From assembly GCF_006175995.1 (NCBI RefSeq), contig NZ_VDMB01000002.1:143090-207089 (forward strand): DNA of 64,000 bases. Reading direction: 5' to 3'. The DNA is from Desulfobotulus mexicanus (GTDB taxonomy: Bacteria > Desulfobacterota > Desulfobacteria > Desulfobacterales > ASO4-4). The translations under genes were made by a program, and so were the position numbers. How positions within the stretch are numbered: the stretch's first letter is position 1; every line of letters starts with the position of its first letter. Under the pieces are notes generated by a model. It was not told the origin of the DNA, ran no database searches, and was given only the letters and a program-made list of their open reading frames with translations. Positions 9,558 to 52,912 of the stretch are shown in pieces.

Positions 9558-9827
9558 ATGCCAACGATAAGCATGTTTTATGGAATTTTGATCTTGATGT
9601 TTTTCCGAGACAATCGCCAACATCATTTGCCTCATATTCATGTTCGTTATCAAGGTGAAGAAGCTGCAATTGCTATAGAGGATGGTTCGATTCTTGGGGG
9701 TAGGATTCCTCCAAAACAACTTAAGCTTGTTCAGGCATGGATAGAAATCCATAAAGAAGCTTTGATTACTAACTGGGAGCTTGCGGTTAACGGGGAAGAG
9801 CCTTTTCGTATTCCACCGCTTCAATGA
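9558..9827 (+). CDS. DUF4160-family protein, copy 1
   Basis: 89 residues, DUF4160 family. The N-terminal strand pair ends in LPHIHVRYQGEEAAI with the H-x-H motif (H26, H28) that recurs in the other two copies in this island. Its stop is 9 nt before the DUF2442 gene. DUF4160 and DUF2442 genes are repeatedly found side by side and have been suspected to be toxin-antitoxin-like; no biochemical function is established to my knowledge. ATG 9558 is chosen because it starts the conserved MPTIS block; the longer frame from 9339 crosses the dispersed repeat. Confidence 0.82.
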   Translation: MPTISMFYGILILMFFRDNRQHHLPHIHVRYQGEEAAIAIEDGSILGGRIPPKQLKLVQAWIEIHKEALITNWELAVNGEEPFRIPPLQ

Positions 9828-9836
9828 GGTGTCGCT

Positions 9837-10073
9837 ATGTTGATTGATGTTGTATTTGTAAAGCCACGTAAGGATTTTCAGCTGGAGCTGGAGTTTGCAA
9901 ATGGGGAGATTCGTATTTTTGACATGCGTCCCTTAATTGCCGTTAAGCCTTGGAATAGAATAGCTTCTCCCGGTATTTTTCAAAAAGCATCTGTAGAATA
10001 TGGGACTGTTGTATGGCCCGGTGGGATTGATGTAGCATCAGATACCTTGTATCTGGATGGGAAAAACTTATAA
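9837..10073 (+). CDS. DUF2442-family protein, copy 1
   Basis: 78 residues. The pattern VFVKPRKDFQLELEFANGEIRIFDMRPLI then WPGGIDVASDTLYLDG is that of the short DUF2442 subtype (a beta-rich domain). It follows copy 1 of DUF4160 with a 9-nt gap and an AGGTG ribosome site, so the two are co-transcribed. This subtype differs from copies 2 and 3, which suggests separate acquisitions rather than local duplication. Function unknown. Confidence 0.82.
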   Translation: MLIDVVFVKPRKDFQLELEFANGEIRIFDMRPLIAVKPWNRIASPGIFQKASVEYGTVVWPGGIDVASDTLYLDGKNL

Positions 10074-10134
10074 ATCGCTCAAACTATGGCCCACAACCAT
10101 CACAACCAATCAGCACAAGCAAACAACCGACACC

Positions 10135-10146
10135 ATGGGACACCCA
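10135..10146. repeat. ATGGGACACCCA repeat family, copy B
   Basis: Exact 12-mer, followed by CTTTGTTGTTTCC, a variant of the sequence after copy A. The flanks (10074-10180) are rich in ACAACC/CCATGG units and contain no gene. Confidence 0.7.
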
Positions 10147-10214
10147 CTTTGTTGTTTCCAAGCCCCCTCCTTTTATGTATCTTTATCTTTAAAAACAGTA
10201 TCCTTTAAAGTGAA

Positions 10215-10236
10215 GGAGGCCATATGACCTGCCTCC
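10215..10236. repeat. Hairpin repeat with GGAGGC/GCCTCC arms, copy 1
   Basis: GGAGGC (10215-10220) pairs with GCCTCC (10231-10236) around CATATGACCT. A near-identical copy with the same loop and right flank lies at 18284-18311. It has the form of a short stem-loop placed downstream of a gene pair; there is no T-run, so terminator activity is unproven. Confidence 0.6.
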
Positions 10237-10282
10237 GTTCAACCCTTATCAGCCTTGAAAGCACTCCCTGGTATCAAAAGCA

Positions 10283-10696
10283 CTAATAATGCGTAATTGA
10301 CTTTTCCAAAGCTATTTTTTTTCCGGCCATAACCAAAAAAGCGGATCTGTCTATTCCCAGTTTAGTTGCAGCCGTATCAATCAATATAAGATCCTGCTCG
10401 GCAAGGCTAATATTTACCCTCGTTCGTTTTTGAACAGTAGCAATAGTTATTAATGTTATTCCAAAAAAATCAAAATCATGTTCATGTTTTCTGGCAATGG
10501 TTTTATAGTTTGAGGGCTCTGGGATTGTTTCACAGTCTTCGGCCATACCTTCAAGATGAAGTGTCAAGGCTTCTTTTGCCATAACTTCCAGTTCTTCAAG
10601 GCTGGACCCTGCCGTGATACAACCGGGAAGATCTGGAAAAGATAAGCCATAATCAGAATCTTCTGTTTTGTGGATGACTCCGTAAAAACTTGCCAT
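10283..10696 (-). CDS. hicB: HicB-family antitoxin
   Basis: 137 residues. The N-terminal half is the degraded RNase H-like HicB fold (SFPDLPGCITAGSSLEEL...AKEALTLHLEG), and the C-terminal ~35 residues form a ribbon-helix-helix-type DNA-binding segment (RTRVNISLAEQDLILIDTAATKL). It would neutralise HicA and repress the locus. GGAAA precedes the ATG. It lies 147 nt downstream of hicA, in the usual hicA-hicB order but with an unusually wide AT-rich gap. Confidence 0.88.
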   Translation of the reverse strand: MASFYGVIHKTEDSDYGLSFPDLPGCITAGSSLEELEVMAKEALTLHLEGMAEDCETIPEPSNYKTIARKHEHDFDFFGITLITIATVQKRTRVNISLAEQDLILIDTAATKLGIDRSAFLVMAGKKIALEKSITHY

Positions 10697-10843
10697 CGGC
10701 GTTTCCTTTCAAATAGTATTTGAGGCTTTGTAAAAATCAGGACCGTGCTACAAATCCTACAAAAGCTTAAAATTACTTAATAAATAATTTAAAAATATTT
10801 TTGGTTAGTGCCACTGAAATTTAAGAGATAATCAGTCTCTTTT

Positions 10844-11032
10844 CTATTTCAGTTTTATTCCGGCCTGCTTTTCAATGCTTTTTAATGTTCCAGGCGGAAC
10901 ATCTTTTTTCGGATGGGAAACCGTTACTCTGCCGGATTTTTCAGGGTGCTTAAATTGCCAATGACTGCCTTTCGTACTCACTTTTACCCAGCCTGCCTGT
11001 ATTAATATTTTTATTATTTCCTGACTGTTCAT
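10844..11032 (-). CDS. hicA: HicA-family mRNA interferase toxin
   Basis: 62 residues, the normal HicA size. The double-stranded RNA-binding-like fold signature is clear: IIKILIQAGWVKVSTKGSHW with the catalytic His in KGSHW, then VTVSHPKKDVPPGTLKSI. The ATG at 11032 starts at the conserved MNSQEIIKIL; the longer frame to 11200 runs through repeat and intron sequence and is not coding. Expected to cleave mRNA when unopposed by HicB. Confidence 0.88.
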   Translation of the reverse strand: MNSQEIIKILIQAGWVKVSTKGSHWQFKHPEKSGRVTVSHPKKDVPPGTLKSIEKQAGIKLK

Positions 11033-11150
11033 GTGTGTAAAGTAACACATACATGTTTGATCGTCAAAATAAAACCACAGATCCATCATGGGACACCTCC
11101 ACCATGGTCCCAGACAATCCAGACAATCAGACAAGGCAGACGGACAGACA

Positions 11151-11162
11151 ATGGGACACCCA
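11151..11162. repeat. ATGGGACACCCA repeat family, copy C (5' exon of intron piece 1)
   Basis: Exact 12-mer directly abutting a group II intron 5' end. Its last six bases CACCCA occupy the position of IBS1. Confidence 0.75.
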
Positions 11163-11297
11163 GTGCGCCGGGATAAGCTGGCATGAGATTGGAGGTGCAA
11201 GTCCTCTATCCGGTAAGGTTTAGCGAACCGCCGGAGACCTTAAGTCATGGACTGCTGCTCGTGAGGGTCGTGGTTAAGCGTTGACAGGGGAACACAC
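11163..11297 (+). mobile_element. Group II intron 5' fragment, piece 1 (internally deleted)
   Basis: Begins with GTGCG, the group II 5' splice-site consensus, and is nearly identical over about 135 nt to piece 2 at 15409 (shared blocks include AAGTCCTCTATCCGG and AAGCGTTGACAGGGG). Everything 3' of AACACAC is lost, and the sequence continues straight into CACCCACTTCGTTATTTACACCC, the right half of the dispersed repeat. It looks like a once-complete intron in a repeat copy that collapsed by deletion across short ACAC homology. It cannot splice or encode a protein. The rest of the 11033-11591 gap holds nothing recognisable. Confidence 0.75.
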
Positions 11298-11591
11298 CAC
11301 CCACTTCGTTATTTACACCCACCCTATTAATTTTGTAATTTTGGGTAGGGGCAGGGTAAACGCATGTAAGTCTCACTTCAAAATTGAGTTTGTGTAAAAT
11401 CAGAGCCTTATAAATTTCAAAGGCTGAACCTCTTTGATTGTTAATGCTGTAACCTATTGAAATTACCTTCCGCAAAATCTACATGCGTTCACCCTGTGGG
11501 TAGGGGAGCAATGCTTGACCTTCTTTTCCAAATACCTTATTTTATAATTTTAAAAGGTGGTCAGGAATAATTTAAATAAAGGGGGAAAAGA

Positions 11592-11831
11592 ATGAGTCCA
11601 ACAGTTTTCAGAGAGAAAGGTTATCGATTCTTTTTCTTTTCCCGAGAAGAAACACGAATGCATGTACATATTTTTTCTGCTTCAGGCGAAGCAAAATTCT
11701 GGATTTTTCCGGAGATAGAGCTTGCAAGAAATTATGGATATAACCGTAGCTAACTGAAAGAGATTGAATCTTTGGTGGAGGAAAATAGAGATGAACTTAT
11801 CAGCGCATGGAAGCAGCACTTTTCCTGTTGA
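11592..11831 (+). pseudogene. DUF4160 gene, copy 2, interrupted by an in-frame TAA
   Basis: The frame opens MSPTVFREKGYRFFFFSREE, contains the family H-x-H (MHVHIFS) and FWIFPEIELARNYGYNRS, then meets TAA at 11751-11753. The same frame then continues LKEIESLVEENRDELISAW to TGA at 11829, matching the end of intact relatives. A single C-to-T change (CAA to TAA, Gln in homologues) would explain it. A 53-residue truncated product remains possible. The DUF2442 partner overlaps its distal part. Confidence 0.78.
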
Positions 11832-12051
11832 AGTAACCCATATTTCAACCCATGGCATCTGGATACTGGCCCATGGATGCGAGCTTTTTATGCCTTACTC
11901 TGATTTTCCATGGTTCAAAGATCAGCGTCTCAGTGACATTCTGAGTGTTGTAGAATTGTCTCCAGGACATTTTTACTGGCCAAATCTCGATATTGATTTG
12001 ACACAGGAAATAATTGAAAATCCGCAGAGGTTCCCAAACATTAGTATTTAA
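11791..12051 (+). CDS. DUF2442-family protein, copy 2
   Basis: 86 residues. The pattern VTHISTHGIWILAHGCELFMPYSDFPWFKDQ, then HFYWPNLDIDLTQEIIENPQ, is the longer DUF2442 subtype with the WP-x-hydrophobic-D motif. ATG 11791 lies inside the end of the broken DUF4160 gene (overlap 41 nt to its distal stop), so translation was probably coupled. With the partner truncated by a stop 38 nt upstream of this ATG, expression may be altered. A scrap of a similar 3' end is at 18345. Confidence 0.78.
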   Translation: MNLSAHGSSTFPVEVTHISTHGIWILAHGCELFMPYSDFPWFKDQRLSDILSVVELSPGHFYWPNLDIDLTQEIIENPQRFPNISI

Positions 12052-12056
12052 AGACT

Positions 12057-12073
12057 AAAAGGGGTCAGACCCC
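12057..12073. repeat. GGGGTCAGACCCC palindrome, copy 1
   Basis: AAAAGGGGTCAGACCCC, an inverted repeat with a 5-nt centre. A longer copy with complete arms lies at 16817-16837. GGGGTCAGACCCC is a recurrent motif near REP-associated Y1 transposase genes, and this copy lies just upstream of such a gene remnant. Confidence 0.65.
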
Positions 12074-12134
12074 AATGGCACTGAATTTAGCATAATATGA
12101 TAAATTTCCAATAAAAAAAGACTGGTTCTGTGAT

Positions 12135-13001
12135 ATGTTGTTAATAGCGACAAAAACAATTAATCACAGGAGCCAGCCTTTGCTAAATCATACACGCACC
12201 CTAAGAGATCAGCAACAGAAGTTTTTTGAAAAAGAATGTAAAAATTTTCCTCACACGGCTTTCTATGACTGTGTGATGCAAGGTTTAATAACAAAAATAG
12301 GGGATTTAAGCCATTCAGACCAGCATCAGCTTGCAGAGCTTGCTGGCCTCTACCGGAGCCGCCTTTTTGATATTTCTTGGTTCATGCGTATGCTCAATGA
12401 ATCCATTGCAAGGAAAGCCAATCAGGAGGAGGGGATAGGCGGCAGGTTCTGGGAAGGGCGTTTCAAGAGTCAGGCCCTTTTAGATGAAAAGGCCATTCTT
12501 GCGGCCATGGCTTATGTGGATCTCAATCCTGTAAGAGCTGGTATGGCAAAAACCCCGGAAGATTCAGAGTATACTTCCATTAAGGAAAGGCTGGATGCCC
12601 TTAAGTCCTCTTCGGCATTGAGTGAATCTGAAAATGATGTCCGGCTTCGAGAGCCTCAGTCACCTACACCCCCTGAAAAACCCAGAGCCGCCCTTGCGCC
12701 CTTTGATGATCTTACGGATATGCCCTTTGCCATTCCCTTTGGTTTCCATGAATACGCAGAGCTTGTGGACTGGACAGGAAGGCAGCTCAGGCGAAAGAAG
12801 ATGAGCATCCGTGAAAATACACCGCCCATTTTGAGTCGTTTAGGTGTGGATGCAGCCGTCTTTGTATCTTCCATGGATACGCTTTTAGAGCAGTTCGGTA
12901 CCGCCGTGGGTGATTCTGAAGTTTTGAGGATGCATTGTAAGCTGAGGGGGCTTCGCTGTATGCCCGGTGTTCGGTGTGATGTCTTTTTTGATGCGGCATG
13001 A
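12135..13001 (+). pseudogene. Truncated/chimeric Y1 (REP-associated) transposase
   Basis: From about residue 52 the protein matches the C-terminal part of long Y1 transposases: DISWFMRMLNESIARKANQE, GGRFWEGRFKSQALLDEK, AMAYVDLNPVRAGMA. The N-terminal catalytic half (HUH motif and catalytic Tyr) is missing. In its place stand about 50 unrelated residues (LLNHTRTLRDQQQKFFEKE). An imperfect inverted repeat, CTGGTTCTGTGAT (12122-12134) versus ATCACAGGAGCCAG (12163-12176), lies across the apparent start. The gene is therefore a fusion of two pieces and catalytically dead. Its last ~160 bp recur at 13923 and 17227. Confidence 0.75.
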
Positions 13002-13067
13002 TTTACAAAGCTCGCTTTATTTCCGTCCGCTTCCCAATAATAATCTGGAAAAGAGACAAACAAGAAA

Positions 13068-13304
13068 ATGCCAACAGTTAAAAGTATTCCAGGTCCTTAC
13101 CGTTTCTTTTTTTATAGTTTTGATTGCAATGAACCAATGCATGTTCATATTCAAAGAGATAAAGAAGTATGCAAATTTTGGTTAAATCCTCTTGTTTTGG
13201 GTAAGAATAATGGATTCTCTCCAAAAGATTTGAATTTAATCAGAAAAATTATACAGTTAAATATGGAAATAATAAGGGAGGCATGGCATGAGCACTGCGA
13301 TTGA
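13068..13304 (+). CDS. DUF4160-family protein, copy 3
   Basis: 78 residues, intact. The N-terminus MPTVKSIPGPYRFFFYSFD leads to EPMHVHIQRDKEVCKFWLNP with the H-x-H motif, then a C-terminal helix (FSPKDLNLIRKIIQLN). It resembles copy 2 more than copy 1. It overlaps the next gene by 17 nt. Function unknown; the pair with DUF2442 is the recurring context. Confidence 0.82.
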   Translation: MPTVKSIPGPYRFFFYSFDCNEPMHVHIQRDKEVCKFWLNPLVLGKNNGFSPKDLNLIRKIIQLNMEIIREAWHEHCD

Positions 13305-13560
13305 AATAGTAGAAGCAAGATTGAACCGTATAGAAGTAACGGACATTGAAATAACAGCCTTTCTTTCTGACGGTCGAAGAATAAGTGTTCCATTGGCATG
13401 GTCCTGGAGATTGTCGGATGCAACTCCGAAACAGCGTCAAAATTACGAAATAATTGGTAATGGTCAAGGCATACATTGGCCTGATATTGATGAGGATATA
13501 AGTGTTGAAGGAATGCTTCTCGGTATCCCTGCACGACACAGACAGTTTTCATTTGCTTAA
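13288..13560 (+). CDS. DUF2442-family protein, copy 3
   Basis: 90 residues. LSDGRRISVPLAWSWRLSDA, then NYEIIGNGQGIHWPDIDEDI, is the canonical longer DUF2442 pattern ending with the WPDIDEDI motif. Overlap with DUF4160 copy 3 (17 nt) indicates coupled translation; AGGGAGG precedes the ATG. This is the only pair of the longer subtype in the island with both genes unbroken. Confidence 0.83.
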   Translation: MSTAIEIVEARLNRIEVTDIEITAFLSDGRRISVPLAWSWRLSDATPKQRQNYEIIGNGQGIHWPDIDEDISVEGMLLGIPARHRQFSFA

Positions 13561-13588: not shown

Positions 13589-13840
13589 TCACTCTGAAAG
13601 TTCCTTTTCAAGGCCTTTTTCATTTTCAAGCTGGGTGATGGATTCCAGAAGACGCCTTGCATTTTTCGGTGACCGTAAAAGATAGGCCGTTTCTTCAAGG
13701 GCTTCATAATCCTCAAGTGACATAATCACAACAGCACTGGATGTTTTACGTGTCACAATAACTGGCGAGCGGTCTTCACAGACCCTGTCCATTGTTTTAG
13801 CGAGGTTTTGTCTTGCAGCGGTATAGGTTATGGCTTCCAT
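13589..13840 (-). CDS. Phd/YefM-family antitoxin without a partner toxin
   Basis: 83 residues. MEAITYTAARQNLAKTMDRV, then RSPVIVTRKTSSAVVIMSLE and DYEALEET, is the YefM/Phd DNA-binding fold with the usual C-terminal toxin-binding helix. A perfect AGGAGG lies 7 nt before the ATG. YefM genes normally precede yoeB or another toxin; here only 28 nt separate its stop from the convergent DUF2442 gene, so the toxin is absent. It could act as an anti-addiction antitoxin or be a relic. Confidence 0.85.
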   Translation of the reverse strand: MEAITYTAARQNLAKTMDRVCEDRSPVIVTRKTSSAVVIMSLEDYEALEETAYLLRSPKNARRLLESITQLENEKGLEKELSE

Positions 13841-13922
13841 ATCTGAATCCTCCTGTACAGAATATTGTACGTCCAGACAGTGGCTTGTCAAGCAAAAAAA
13901 AGGTATGCTCCCTTTGAAAATT

Positions 13923-14079
13923 TGTGGATGCAGCCGTATTTGTATCTTCCATGGATATGCTTTTGGAGAAGTTCGGTACCGCCGTGGGTGATCCTGAAGT
14001 TTTGAGGATGCACTGCAAACTACGGGGTCTTCGCTGTATGCCGGGTGTTCGGTGTGAGGTCTTTTTTGATGCGGCATGA
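13923..14079 (+). pseudogene. 3' tail of Y1 transposase, copy 2
   Basis: About 157 bp closely matching the end of the 12135-13001 gene (GATGCAGCCGT, TTCGGTACCGCCGTGGGTGA, ending GATGCGGCATGA). There is no upstream coding part. It sits in the upstream region of the orphan Phd antitoxin. Confidence 0.8.
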
Positions 14080-14104
14080 TTTACAGGGCAGGATTTATCT
14101 CTGG

Positions 14105-14222: not shown

Positions 14223-15167
14223 ATGGCAACAAGCAATTCCAGTGATTACGACAGCCCATGGAAAGAGGCCGTAGAGCGGTACTTTAAGGAATTTCTGGCT
14301 CTTCTTTATCCTCAGATCCATGATGAGACAGACTGAAGCCGTAAGCCCGTATTCATCGACAAGGAGCTTCAGAAGGTAGTCCGGGATGCAACCCTGGAAC
14401 GGCGTTATGCGGATAAGCTGGTGAAGGTCTGGACTAAGAAGAATCAGGAAATCTGGGTGCTGATTCATGTGGAGGTTCAGGGTGACCCTGAAACTGTCTT
14501 CCCCAAACGCATGTATGTGTACAATTTCCGCATCTTTGACCGCTATGACAGGGATGTGGTCAGCCTTGGCGTACTGACGGACAGGCAGGAGAGCTTCAGA
14601 CCGGATTCCTATGCCAGAGAATTATGGGGCTGCTCCCTTGACTTCCGCTTTCCCATTGTCAAACTTATGGACTGGGAGGATGAAGAGCGTTGGGAAGAGC
14701 TTGAAAACAGCGACAATGTTTTCGCCCTGGTGGTCATGGCCCAGATCAAGGCCAAAAGCTGCAAATCAAAAGACGAGCTGAAGGCATGGAAGTTCCATCT
14801 GGTGAAGCTTATGTATCAGCGGAACTATAGCAAAGAAGACATCCTGCAGCTTTACCTGTACATCGACTGGATGATAAGCCTGCCCAGGAAGCTTGAAAAA
14901 CAGTTCCTTGACGATGTTTACCTCTTTGAGGAGGAGAAAAAGATGCCATACATTACAAGTGCAGAGCGGTTTGGGTTGGAGAGGGGTGAGGTTAAGGGCA
15001 TGTACAACGAGAAGTTCCAGACCATCATGAGCCTTAATGAGTTCAATATGAAACCGGAGGATATTGCCAAGGCTACCCGTCTTACCCCTGAACAGATAAA
15101 GGCTGTCCTTGCAGCAGGAGACAAGGGCCTGGATCTTCTCATAGGTGATGATGCTACCAGACATTAA
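14223..15167 (+). pseudogene. Rpn/PD-(D/E)XK transposase-like nuclease with in-frame TGA
   Basis: ATG 14223 follows AAAGGA and opens YDSPWKEAVERYFKEFLALLY, the start of a common family of ~310-residue PD-(D/E)XK proteins (DUF4351/Rpn-like). At codon 38 (14334-14336) a TGA stands where relatives have Trp (the DWS motif); the same frame then continues SRKPVFIDKELQKVVRD and VLIHVEVQGDPE (active-site E-x-Q/K region) to 15167. One G-to-A change explains it. The downstream part could in principle start at GTG 14421, but that would lack the N-terminal active-site residues. The last ~55 residues resemble those of the nuclease at 17328. Confidence 0.82.
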
Positions 15168-15408: not shown

Positions 15409-15880
15409 GTGCGCCGGGATAAGCTGGCATGAGATTGGAGGTGCAAGTCCTCTATCCGGTAAGGTATAGCGAACCGCCGGAGCCCTTAAGTCATGGGCTG
15501 CTACTCGTGAGGGTAGTGGTTAAGCGTTGACAGGGGAACACACAGGCTCGGTATTGAGCTCCTAAATCAGGGTTGGGAATGCTGACCGTGTTGGGTGAAC
15601 GGGAAGGCAAAACTGAATGCTGCGTCAACGCAAGTAGCAGGCAGGTTCCCCGGAGTCGCTGACCCGGTGCATGTGTGAATGTCTCATGAACGGAACCCGG
15701 GAGGCCTCATCCAGCGGTACTTTAAGAGAGTAACTAACAGCTCCAAGGTAAGTAGCCGAACAGCTGCCAGAGCCGGGTGAGGAGTCGGACAAGGCCATAG
15801 TAGTGAAGAAGGGGACGAACAAATTGAAGGAACAGGCATGATGACAAACGAACTGGATATGCGAAGTCCGGGGGACTCCA
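15409..15880 (+). mobile_element. Group II intron 5' fragment, piece 2 (domains I to start of ORF)
   Basis: Starts GTGCG and runs about 470 nt with the dense stem-loop composition of intron domains I-III. TGGGTG at 15592-15597 is complementary to CACCCA immediately before the intron, as expected for an EBS1-IBS1 pair. A short frame starting ATG 15838 (MMTNELDMRSPGDSRK) has the position expected for the intron-encoded reverse transcriptase, but no RT domain follows. All sequence from the ORF to the 3' splice site (domains V and VI) is gone. The exact right end is uncertain; the hairpin at 15883 marks where unrelated sequence seems to begin. Confidence 0.75.
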
Positions 15881-17226: not shown

Positions 17227-17310
17227 TTCCATGGATAAGCTTTAGGAGAAGTTCGGCACCGCCGTGGGTGATCCTGAAGTTTTGAGGATGCACTGCAAGC
17301 TGAGGGGGCT
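17227..17310 (+). pseudogene. 3' tail of Y1 transposase, copy 3
   Basis: About 84 bp matching the same tail region as at 12870 and 13955 (TTCCATGGATA, GAGAAGTTCGG, GATCCTGAAGTTTTGAGGAT) and losing similarity just before the Rpn gene at 17328. Upstream sequence back to 17064 is not recognised. Confidence 0.75.
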
Positions 17311-17327: not shown

Positions 17328-18263
17328 ATGAACCAGAAACCAGCGGGAGGCTCCTTGAACCAGATGCTTACGGATTTTTATGTAAAGCCCACATCGGATA
17401 TCTTCATCAAGTTCCTCTTTGGCAAGGAAGAGCATAAGCCCATTCTCATTGATTTCATCAATGCTGTTATGAAGAACTCAGGATTTACTTTGATCACAGA
17501 CCTTGTGATTAAAAACCCTTTCAACATTCAGACCATCCTCAATGCCAAAGAAACCATACTGGATATCAAGGCAAAATCTTCTGACGGCAGGTGGATTGAT
17601 ATAGAAATGCAGAACTCGAATAAGGGCTTTTTCGGGGAACGGGCTTTGCATTACTGGACGGATCTTTACGGAGATCAGTTAGTTACAGTTGACAATTATT
17701 CTACCCTGTGCCCTGTGGTCTGCATCAGTATCCTTGATTTTAAGATGTCTAAGAACGTGGATAGATACCACCTCTGCTTCATGCTCCGGGAAAAGGATAC
17801 GCCGGAACTGCTCTTAACGGATCACCTTTCCCTGCATTTCCTTGAACTTCCCAAGATTACTGCTTACAATCTGGATAAGAGTCTGGACAACTGGCTTTAT
17901 TATCTCAAAAATGAAGGCCTGAACAGGGAGTATGAGACTATGGAAAATATCTTAAAGAACAATCCTCAGATAGCCAACGCCAGAGAAAAATACCTGAGCT
18001 TTACTCAGGACGAACATATGCGTGAGGCCTATAATTCTCACATCAGATGGAAGCGGGATCATGATTCGGCTTTGTTTTTTGCGGAGCAGAAGGGAGAGAT
18101 CAGGGAGAAGTTCCAAACCATCATGGAGCTTCTGGATTTCAATATGAAGCCTGAAGAGATAGCCAGGATTACAAGGCTCACCCCTGAAAAGGTAAGGGCT
18201 GTTATTGTAGCAGGGGAGAAAGGTCTGGATCTTCTGCTGGATGATGATGCTACCAGGTATTAG
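17328..18263 (+). CDS. Rpn-family recombination-promoting nuclease / PD-(D/E)XK transposase-like
   Basis: 311 residues, intact. FYVKPTSDIFIKFLFGKEEH at the N-terminus, LDIKAKSSDGRWIDIEMQNS (active-site D...E-x-Q) and GFFGERALHYWTDLYGDQL are typical of the PDDEXK_2/Rpn family, which cleaves DNA and promotes recombination in E. coli. ATG 17328 has no clear ribosome site; ATG 17364 (MLTDFYVKP) is an alternative with GGGAGG 13 nt upstream. The C-terminal ~55 residues (EKFQTIMELLDFNMKPEEI onward) closely match the tail of the broken nuclease at 14223. Confidence 0.85.
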   Translation: MNQKPAGGSLNQMLTDFYVKPTSDIFIKFLFGKEEHKPILIDFINAVMKNSGFTLITDLVIKNPFNIQTILNAKETILDIKAKSSDGRWIDIEMQNSNKGFFGERALHYWTDLYGDQLVTVDNYSTLCPVVCISILDFKMSKNVDRYHLCFMLREKDTPELLLTDHLSLHFLELPKITAYNLDKSLDNWLYYLKNEGLNREYETMENILKNNPQIANAREKYLSFTQDEHMREAYNSHIRWKRDHDSALFFAEQKGEIREKFQTIMELLDFNMKPEEIARITRLTPEKVRAVIVAGEKGLDLLLDDDATRY

Positions 18264-18344: not shown

Positions 18345-18391
18345 AGGAGATTGATCTTATACAGGAAACAATTGAAAAACCGCAGAGGTTC
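18345..18391 (+). pseudogene. Scrap of a DUF2442 3' end
   Basis: GAGATTGATCTTATACAGGA and the following bases encode EIDLIQETIEKPQRFP, matching IDLTQEIIENPQRFP at the end of DUF2442 copy 2. No upstream part of the gene remains, and the sequence runs directly into intron piece 3 through the shared string AGGTTCCC. Confidence 0.75.
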
Positions 18392-18493
18392 CCCGGAGTC
18401 GCTGACCCGGTGCATGTGTGAATGTCTCATGAACGGAACCTGAGGAGGCCTCACTCAGTGGGACTTATAAAGTTACTGATAGCTCAAAGGTGA
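18384..18493 (+). mobile_element. Group II intron internal fragment, piece 3
   Basis: About 110 nt homologous to 15643-15755 of piece 2 (shared blocks: GGAGTCGCTGACCCGGTGCA, GTGTGAATGTCTCATGAACG, TAGCTC-AAGGT). Neither end of an intron is present. The left edge is fused to a DUF2442 scrap, the right edge to the radical SAM gene, whose AAGGTGAG ribosome site is formed by intron sequence. Confidence 0.75.
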
Positions 18494-52271: not shown

Positions 52272-52349
52272 TGGCGTCCCCAAGGGGATTCGAACCCCTG
52301 TCGCCGGCGTGAAAGGCCGGTGTCCTGGACCGGGCTAGACGATGGGGAC
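52272..52349 (-). tRNA. tRNA-Glu (TTC), copy 1
   Basis: The 78-nt cloverleaf includes an encoded CCA. Acceptor GTCCCC / GGGGAC, T-loop GGTTCGAATCC, anticodon TTC (complement of 52311-52313) in CTTTCAC. Last gene of the tRNA array. Confidence 0.95.
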
Positions 52350-52354
52350 GCATG

Positions 52355-52439
52355 TGGTGGTGGGGGGAGGATTTGAACCTCCGAAGGCTTGGCCGACAGA
52401 TTTACAGTCTGTTCCCTTTGACCACTCGGGAACCCCACC
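52355..52439 (-). tRNA. tRNA-Tyr (GTA), copy 1
   Basis: 85 nt with a long variable arm and encoded CCA. Acceptor GGTGGGG / CCCCACC; anticodon GTA (complement of 52403-52405). Five nt from tRNA-Glu copy 1. Confidence 0.95.
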
Positions 52440-52518
52440 GGATTTATGATCTTACTTTGTTTTTTACTCCGGTTATTCCCTGGATTTTTTTATATTGTTT
52501 TGAATTTTTGAAAAAAAA

Positions 52519-52603
52519 TGGTACCGAAGGCCGGACTTGAACCGGCACGGGTCTCCCCACTGCGCCCTCAACACAGCGTGTCTACCTATTCCACCACTTC
52601 GGC
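52519..52603 (-). tRNA. tRNA-Leu (GAG), copy 1
   Basis: 85 nt, long variable arm, encoded CCA. Acceptor GCCGAAG / CTTCGGT; anticodon GAG (complement of 52567-52569). An AT-rich spacer of 79 nt separates it from tRNA-Tyr copy 1. Confidence 0.95.
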
Positions 52604-52613
52604 ATATCATTTA

Positions 52614-52691
52614 TGGCGTCCCCAAGGGGATTCGAACCCCTGTCGCCGGCGTGAAAGGCCGGTGTCCTGGACCGGGCTAGACGATGGGGAC
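52614..52691 (-). tRNA. tRNA-Glu (TTC), copy 2
   Basis: Identical to copy 1 throughout, offset 342 bp. Confidence 0.95.
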
Positions 52692-52696
52692 GCATG

Positions 52697-52781
52697 TGGT
52701 GGTGGGGGGAGGATTTGAACCTCCGAAGGCTTGGCCGACAGATTTACAGTCTGTTCCCTTTGACCGCTCGGGAACCCCACC
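52697..52781 (-). tRNA. tRNA-Tyr (GTA), copy 2
   Basis: Same as copy 1 except one base (A to G on the plus strand, in CCACTCGG versus CCGCTCGG), located in the D-arm region. Confidence 0.95.
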
Positions 52782-52796
52782 AATGCTACATATTTT

Positions 52797-52822
52797 GATC
52801 CTGCTTCAAATGAGGCAGGATC
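52797..52822. other. Inverted repeat between tRNA-Leu and tRNA-Tyr copy 2
   Basis: GATCCTGC and GCAGGATC pair perfectly around a 10-nt loop. No T-run follows on the transcribed strand, so it is more likely a processing structure than a terminator. Absent from the equivalent spacer in copy 1. Confidence 0.5.
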
Positions 52823-52827
52823 CTGTT

Positions 52828-52912
52828 TGGTACCGAAGGCCGGACTTGAACCGGCACGGGTCTCCCCACTGCGCCCTCAACACAGCGTGTCTACCTATTC
52901 CACCACTTCGGC
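52828..52912 (-). tRNA. tRNA-Leu (GAG), copy 2
   Basis: Identical to copy 1. Its 5' end is 12 nt after the secG stop codon, so it is read from the secG transcript. E. coli also has a GAG tRNA-Leu gene (leuU) directly after secG. Confidence 0.95.

Follow-up and report, generated by a model that had tools for sequence, protein, structure and literature searches.

What is the role of three gene pairs, each composed of a DUF4160 gene followed by a DUF2442 gene, that lie within 4 kb of the genome of Desulfobotulus mexicanus, and how did they come to be together? An earlier note on the stretch of 64,000 nucleotides (nt) analyzed here, hereafter the window, had proposed an addiction, anti-phage, or RNA-targeting module whose activity had not been described. 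Our preferred answer, to which we give a probability of about 0.86, is that all three pairs are, or once were, type II toxin-antitoxin (TA) modules of the DhiTA/PEM family, that they were acquired separately, and that copies 1 and 3 look functional, while copy 2 has lost its toxin. Copies 1, 2, and 3, numbered from left to right in the window, are the pairs at 9558-10073, 11592-12051, and 13068-13560. Their genes, together with a DUF2442 scrap found nearby, are the following:

9558-9827, plus strand: DUF4160 gene of copy 1, a DhiT/PEM-like toxin by homology; 89 amino acids, intact (PF13711, 87.9 bits; NF048015, 94.3 bits)
9837-10073, plus strand: DUF2442 gene of copy 1, antitoxin by homology; 78 amino acids (PF10387, 40.4 bits)
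11592-11831, plus strand: DUF4160 gene of copy 2, toxin pseudogene of the overlapping lineage (defined below); TAA at 11751-11753, codon 54 (PF13711, 40.2 bits, the scan covering only the part upstream of the TAA)
11791-12051, plus strand: DUF2442 gene of copy 2, antitoxin by homology; 86 amino acids, intact (PF10387, 46.3 bits)
13068-13304, plus strand: DUF4160 gene of copy 3, toxin of the overlapping lineage by homology; 78 amino acids, intact (PF13711, 64.9 bits)
13288-13560, plus strand: DUF2442 gene of copy 3, antitoxin by homology; 90 amino acids (PF10387, 72.5 bits)
18347-18393, plus strand: DUF2442 scrap, 3' end of the copy 2 type; 16 codons (87% identity over 47 nt to the DUF2442 gene of copy 2)

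All the matches to PF13711 (DUF4160) and PF10387 (DUF2442) pass the Pfam cut-offs, and in the three pairs the DUF4160 gene comes first, on the same strand as its partner. A gap of 9 nt separates the genes of pair 1; those of pair 3 overlap by 17 nt and, with the stop read through, those of pair 2 by 41 nt. The coupling by gap or overlap described in the earlier note was thus confirmed, as was the histidine-x-histidine motif (H-x-H), which reads HIH, HVH, and HVH in copies 1, 2, and 3, respectively. The count of three pairs, on the other hand, had to be amended. The coordinates and the Pfam matches hold, but the DUF4160 gene of copy 2 has an in-frame TAA after 53 codons, with the domain still recognizable downstream of the stop, so that the window holds two intact pairs and a third in which the antitoxin gene is whole but the toxin gene is broken. 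The DUF2442 remnant that had been placed nearby is indeed present, and it joins, at AGGTTCCC, sequence that is also present near the intron end at 15643.

DUF4160 and DUF2442 genes number five each in the whole genome, and this cluster holds three of either kind; the remaining two DUF4160 genes, on contigs C36 and C38, each have a DUF2442 partner. Three of five randomly placed DUF4160 genes would fall inside 3.7 kb with a probability of about 3e-5, so the clustering is beyond chance. The G+C content of the pairs (0.36-0.41) is below that of the window (0.47), in keeping with import.

Contrary to the claim that their activity was undescribed, such pairs have already been published as DhiTA and as PEM, and NCBIfam holds a model for the toxin (NF048015, toxin_DhiT), which is an equivalog model with a cut-off of 100 bits. 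The dhiTA genes were reported in 2021 in Dickeya dadantii 3937 as a DUF4160/DUF2442 pair with the toxin gene upstream of the antitoxin gene; overexpression of DhiT inhibits growth, no inhibition is seen when the antitoxin is co-expressed, and the dhiTA promoter is repressed by the antitoxin and by the toxin-antitoxin complex (PMC8198452). PEM, a Thermus pair of the same two families reported in 2025, stabilizes plasmids, and transformants of T. thermophilus were obtained with the plasmid lacking the first PEM gene, while none were obtained with the plasmid lacking the second (PMC12724237). The idea of an addiction module is therefore borne out by these relatives. Judged by their domains, all three pairs of the window belong to the described DUF4160/DUF2442 TA family and are not a new kind of system, and we infer that they act like their relatives in Dickeya and Thermus. 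A cluster of "unknown function" is in this way placed in a described, little-studied TA family.

If so, the first gene of each pair would encode a growth-inhibiting toxin, and the second an antitoxin that would neutralize the toxin and, with it, repress the shared promoter. The modules would travel between bacteria as small passengers of plasmids and other mobile DNA, and would persist because loss of the antitoxin harms the host. Here, three of them would have been gained separately and have accumulated amid remnants of transposases and group II introns. Activity as TA pairs is likely for copies 1 and 3, while copy 2 would have lost its toxin and retained its antitoxin.

Some observations weigh against this interpretation. 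With NF048015, the copy 1 toxin misses the cut-off by 5.7 bits, although it scores slightly higher than the active Thermus toxin (90.7 bits), which is under the cut-off as well; the model gives no match to copy 3, and a genome search with it did not find copy 2. The function of the lineage of copies 2 and 3 is for this reason read from the Pfam families and the gene arrangement, and, going by the model, none of the three toxins is DhiT in NCBI's narrow, Dickeya-type sense. In addition, the plasmid-stability heading in the Dickeya paper lists only ccdAB2, without dhiTA (PMC8198452), and both of the single-gene-deleted Thermus plasmids were kept in E. coli (PMC12724237), which suggests that the toxicity may depend on the host. 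The Acidovorax citrulli protein Aave_1720, met during the search for DhiT, is BrnT-like and was set aside as being outside the DUF4160 family.

A survey of co-occurrence, set beforehand as a check, covered 147 genomes of the same class as the source genome. A DUF4160 match of at least 50.8 bits was scored as paired when a DUF2442 match lay on the same strand, at most 340 nt away. By this rule, at least 94 of the 106 DUF4160 genes had a DUF2442 partner (the C36 copy of the source genome was scored as unpaired, though it is actually paired), and the toxin gene came first in 93 of the 94. The sole pair with DUF2442 upstream of DUF4160 is at C138:3269-3749 of genome G035. In each of two genomes of one genus (G099, C1:1088036-1093149; G025, C1:1585589-1590668), two DUF4160 genes of opposite orientation lie about 4.7 kb from each other. 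Toxins of the copy 3 type were found at 45 loci across many phyla, 44 of them with a DUF2442 gene of the copy 3 type downstream, and all 35 of the intact pairs of this type have overlapping genes, with 17-38 nt shared by the toxin and antitoxin genes.

The two genes also differ in how they decay. Among the matches listed (at least 38.5 bits) in the survey genomes, in-frame stops were present in 13 of 123 DUF4160 sequences versus 1 of 150 DUF2442 sequences (Fisher p 4e-4, an approximate value, the genomes being related). A broken toxin gene next to a whole antitoxin gene was seen in at least 6 of the 45 copy-3-type loci and the reverse in none; copy 2 of the window shows the same pattern, with its toxin gene stopped and its antitoxin gene intact. 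The toxin decays before the antitoxin, a trait of type II TA systems, and the concentration of decay on DUF4160 gives independent support to its being the toxin.

Plasmids carry both lineages. The overlapping lineage occurs on 3.4-kb Aeromonas plasmids with little other content, and the Acidiphilium plasmid pACRY06 bears a tandem double pair, and this carriage favors an addiction role. Many type II TA systems work against phages. The pairs of the window, which cluster with HicAB and mobile-element debris, might likewise serve in anti-phage defense, with the toxin freed upon infection (abortive infection), and a DUF4160 gene does occur in a few phage-derived records. We consider this unlikely, however, as the presence of relatives on tiny plasmids is compatible with addiction and calls for no defense role, and no match was found in PADLOC-DB, although this is one library, from 2023, and the lack of a match is no refutation.

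The origin of the three copies was examined with trees of 60 toxins and of their 60 partner antitoxins, both of which split in two (support of 1.0 for the toxins and 0.66 for the antitoxins). One part is an adjacent-gene lineage, DhiT/PEM-like and including copy 1, in which most pairs have small gaps or small overlaps; the other is an overlapping-gene lineage, including copies 2 and 3, in which the genes share some 17 nt or more. That copy 1 is of a different subtype from copies 2 and 3, as had been suggested, is in agreement with this split. Inside each lineage, the distances in the toxin and antitoxin trees correlate (r of 0.63 and 0.77, permutation p of 0.0005). Strict linkage and co-inheritance of the DUF4160 and DUF2442 genes, another trait of type II TA systems, are therefore observed. 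Neither the two lineages with their type-matched partners nor the decay biased to DUF4160 was met in the available parts of the published accounts, and both may be taken as small additions to what is described of the family.

In the toxin and antitoxin trees alike, the nearest relative of copy 1 comes from a different genome of the class and copy 3 groups with a Desulfotignum locus; the branch of copy 2 is long. Since, in addition, the toxins of the three copies are just 22-38% identical, separate acquisition, also put forward in the earlier note, is the best reading of the three copies. Local duplication of one ancestral pair would account for three pairs in 4 kb, and tandem pairs such as that of pACRY06 are known elsewhere, but the low identity and the nearest relatives of copies 1 and 3 in other genomes lead us to reject it as very improbable.

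The distance between the lineages also bears on whether copies 2 and 3 are TA modules at all. They could be a different two-gene unit that shares only the Pfam domains with DhiTA; the lack of a match to the NCBI DhiT model, the long branches that part the lineages, and the low identity of copy 3 to copy 1 (22% for the toxin and 24% for the antitoxin) are all in its favor. The overlapping lineage has, nevertheless, the same gene order and strict pairing as the DhiTA-like lineage, is likewise carried on plasmids, and decays in a way that spares the second gene. The H-x-H motif and a tryptophan are also invariant in both: across the two lineages, the most conserved toxin residues are H25 (60/60), H27 (59/60), and W73 (60/60). 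A non-TA unit thus seems decidedly unlikely, and TA modules of the DhiTA/PEM family remain our reading for both lineages.

The structures of the copy 3 proteins were predicted as single chains. The toxin model, a confident one (mean predicted local distance difference test score, pLDDT, of 90.9), is a small beta sheet with two C-terminal helices. Its best match in the PDB is a weak one, to a mitoribosome assembly protein (Z 4.6; root mean square deviation, rmsd, 2.8 over 73 residues), and no convincing relative of the fold was found in the PDB or among viral models, including no clear match to RelE, BrnT, or HicA; a PDB sequence search with the toxin gave nothing significant. RNA exosome subunits among the weak matches (Z below 4) were not used. 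For lack of a convincing relative, no mechanism was drawn from the structure. Our best guess, a tentative one held at somewhat less than even odds, is that the toxin may act enzymatically on RNA or on translation by means of the two invariant histidines. It is doubtful that the overlapping lineage would form a toxin class apart, directed at a target of its own, that is, a compact protein of beta sheet and helical hairpin with an active site of H-x-H and C-terminal tryptophan unlike those of known TA toxins. The antitoxin model, in turn, resembles three solved DUF2442-like structures, 3K8R (Z 11.2, rmsd 3.0 over 80 residues), 2X8N (Z 9.1, rmsd 5.2 over 88 residues), and 2AUW (Z 6.3, rmsd 2.9 over 71 residues). 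The last of these is longer and is titled a putative DNA-binding protein, whereas the antitoxin of copy 3 has just one domain, of 90 amino acids.

The surroundings of the pairs, from about 9.3 to 18.5 kb of the window, are made up of remnants of transposases and group II introns, with two Rpn genes, HicAB, and an orphan YefM. The features are:

10283-10696, minus strand: HicB antitoxin (PF15919, 90.8 bits)
10844-11032, minus strand: HicA toxin (PF07927, 80.2 bits)
11198-11320, plus strand: group II intron remnant (Rfam RF02005, 68.3 bits)
12845-13023, plus strand: 3' end of an IS200/RAYT-like transposase gene, direct repeat 1 (repeat comparison, 89%)
13589-13843, minus strand: YefM antitoxin, orphan (PF02604, 86.6 bits; PRK11409 YefM model, 115.8 bits, cut-off 121)
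13923-14101, plus strand: 3' end of an IS200/RAYT-like transposase gene, direct repeat 2 (repeat comparison)
15444-15665: group II intron remnant, more complete than that at 11198-11320 (Rfam RF02005, 160.6 bits)

The statement that the pairs lie beside known TA pairs holds for HicAB, which is complete; no YoeB gene was found beside the YefM gene, and the YoeB matches of the genome are only on other contigs. The direct repeats at 12845 and 13923 flank copy 3 and yefM, and a further transposase 3' end is at 17227; the name IS200/RAYT-like was given by inspection of the sequence to a truncated open reading frame without a Pfam match. In the intact relative of this transposase in a congener, the 5' region is about 290 nt from the middle part; in the window, about 2 kb, holding HicAB and copy 2, lie between them. 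The open reading frame at 12135-13001 seems to be chimeric, as its first part (12056-12299) shares 97.5% identity with a repeat located on contig C38 and the remainder matches the later part of a transposase gene. The two genes for recombination-promoting nucleases of the Rpn family (14421-15167 and 17328-18263) have many close copies elsewhere in the genome. The three-pair cluster was not found in the two congeners compared, in one of which (G027) the radical SAM gene of the right flank adjoins other genes, with no TA pairs. Scans for promoters and terminators gave no excess of sites over shuffled sequence, and no attC-like sites of an integron cassette array were noticed by eye, no dedicated attC search having been made. 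Farther along the window, a minus-strand cluster of six tRNAs (52275-52912) looks duplicated, as identical scores recur.

Compared with known systems, the pairs share with HicAB the position of the toxin gene ahead of the antitoxin gene, although HicAB and YefM/YoeB are of different protein families. The likeness to DhiTA of Dickeya is closer, with the same two Pfam families, the toxin gene first, the genes adjacent or overlapping, and a copy 1 toxin that aligns to the DhiT model over 82 of its 84 positions. Unlike DhiTA, copy 1 does not reach the equivalog cut-off, the model does not match copies 2 and 3, and the toxin gene of copy 2 is broken. PEM, on pTthSNM1-1d, is plasmid-borne in a thermophilic host, whereas the pairs of the window are on a 307-kb contig; yet it too has DUF4160 followed by DUF2442, with a gap of 10 nt against the 9 nt of copy 1, and a toxin 47% identical to that of copy 1.

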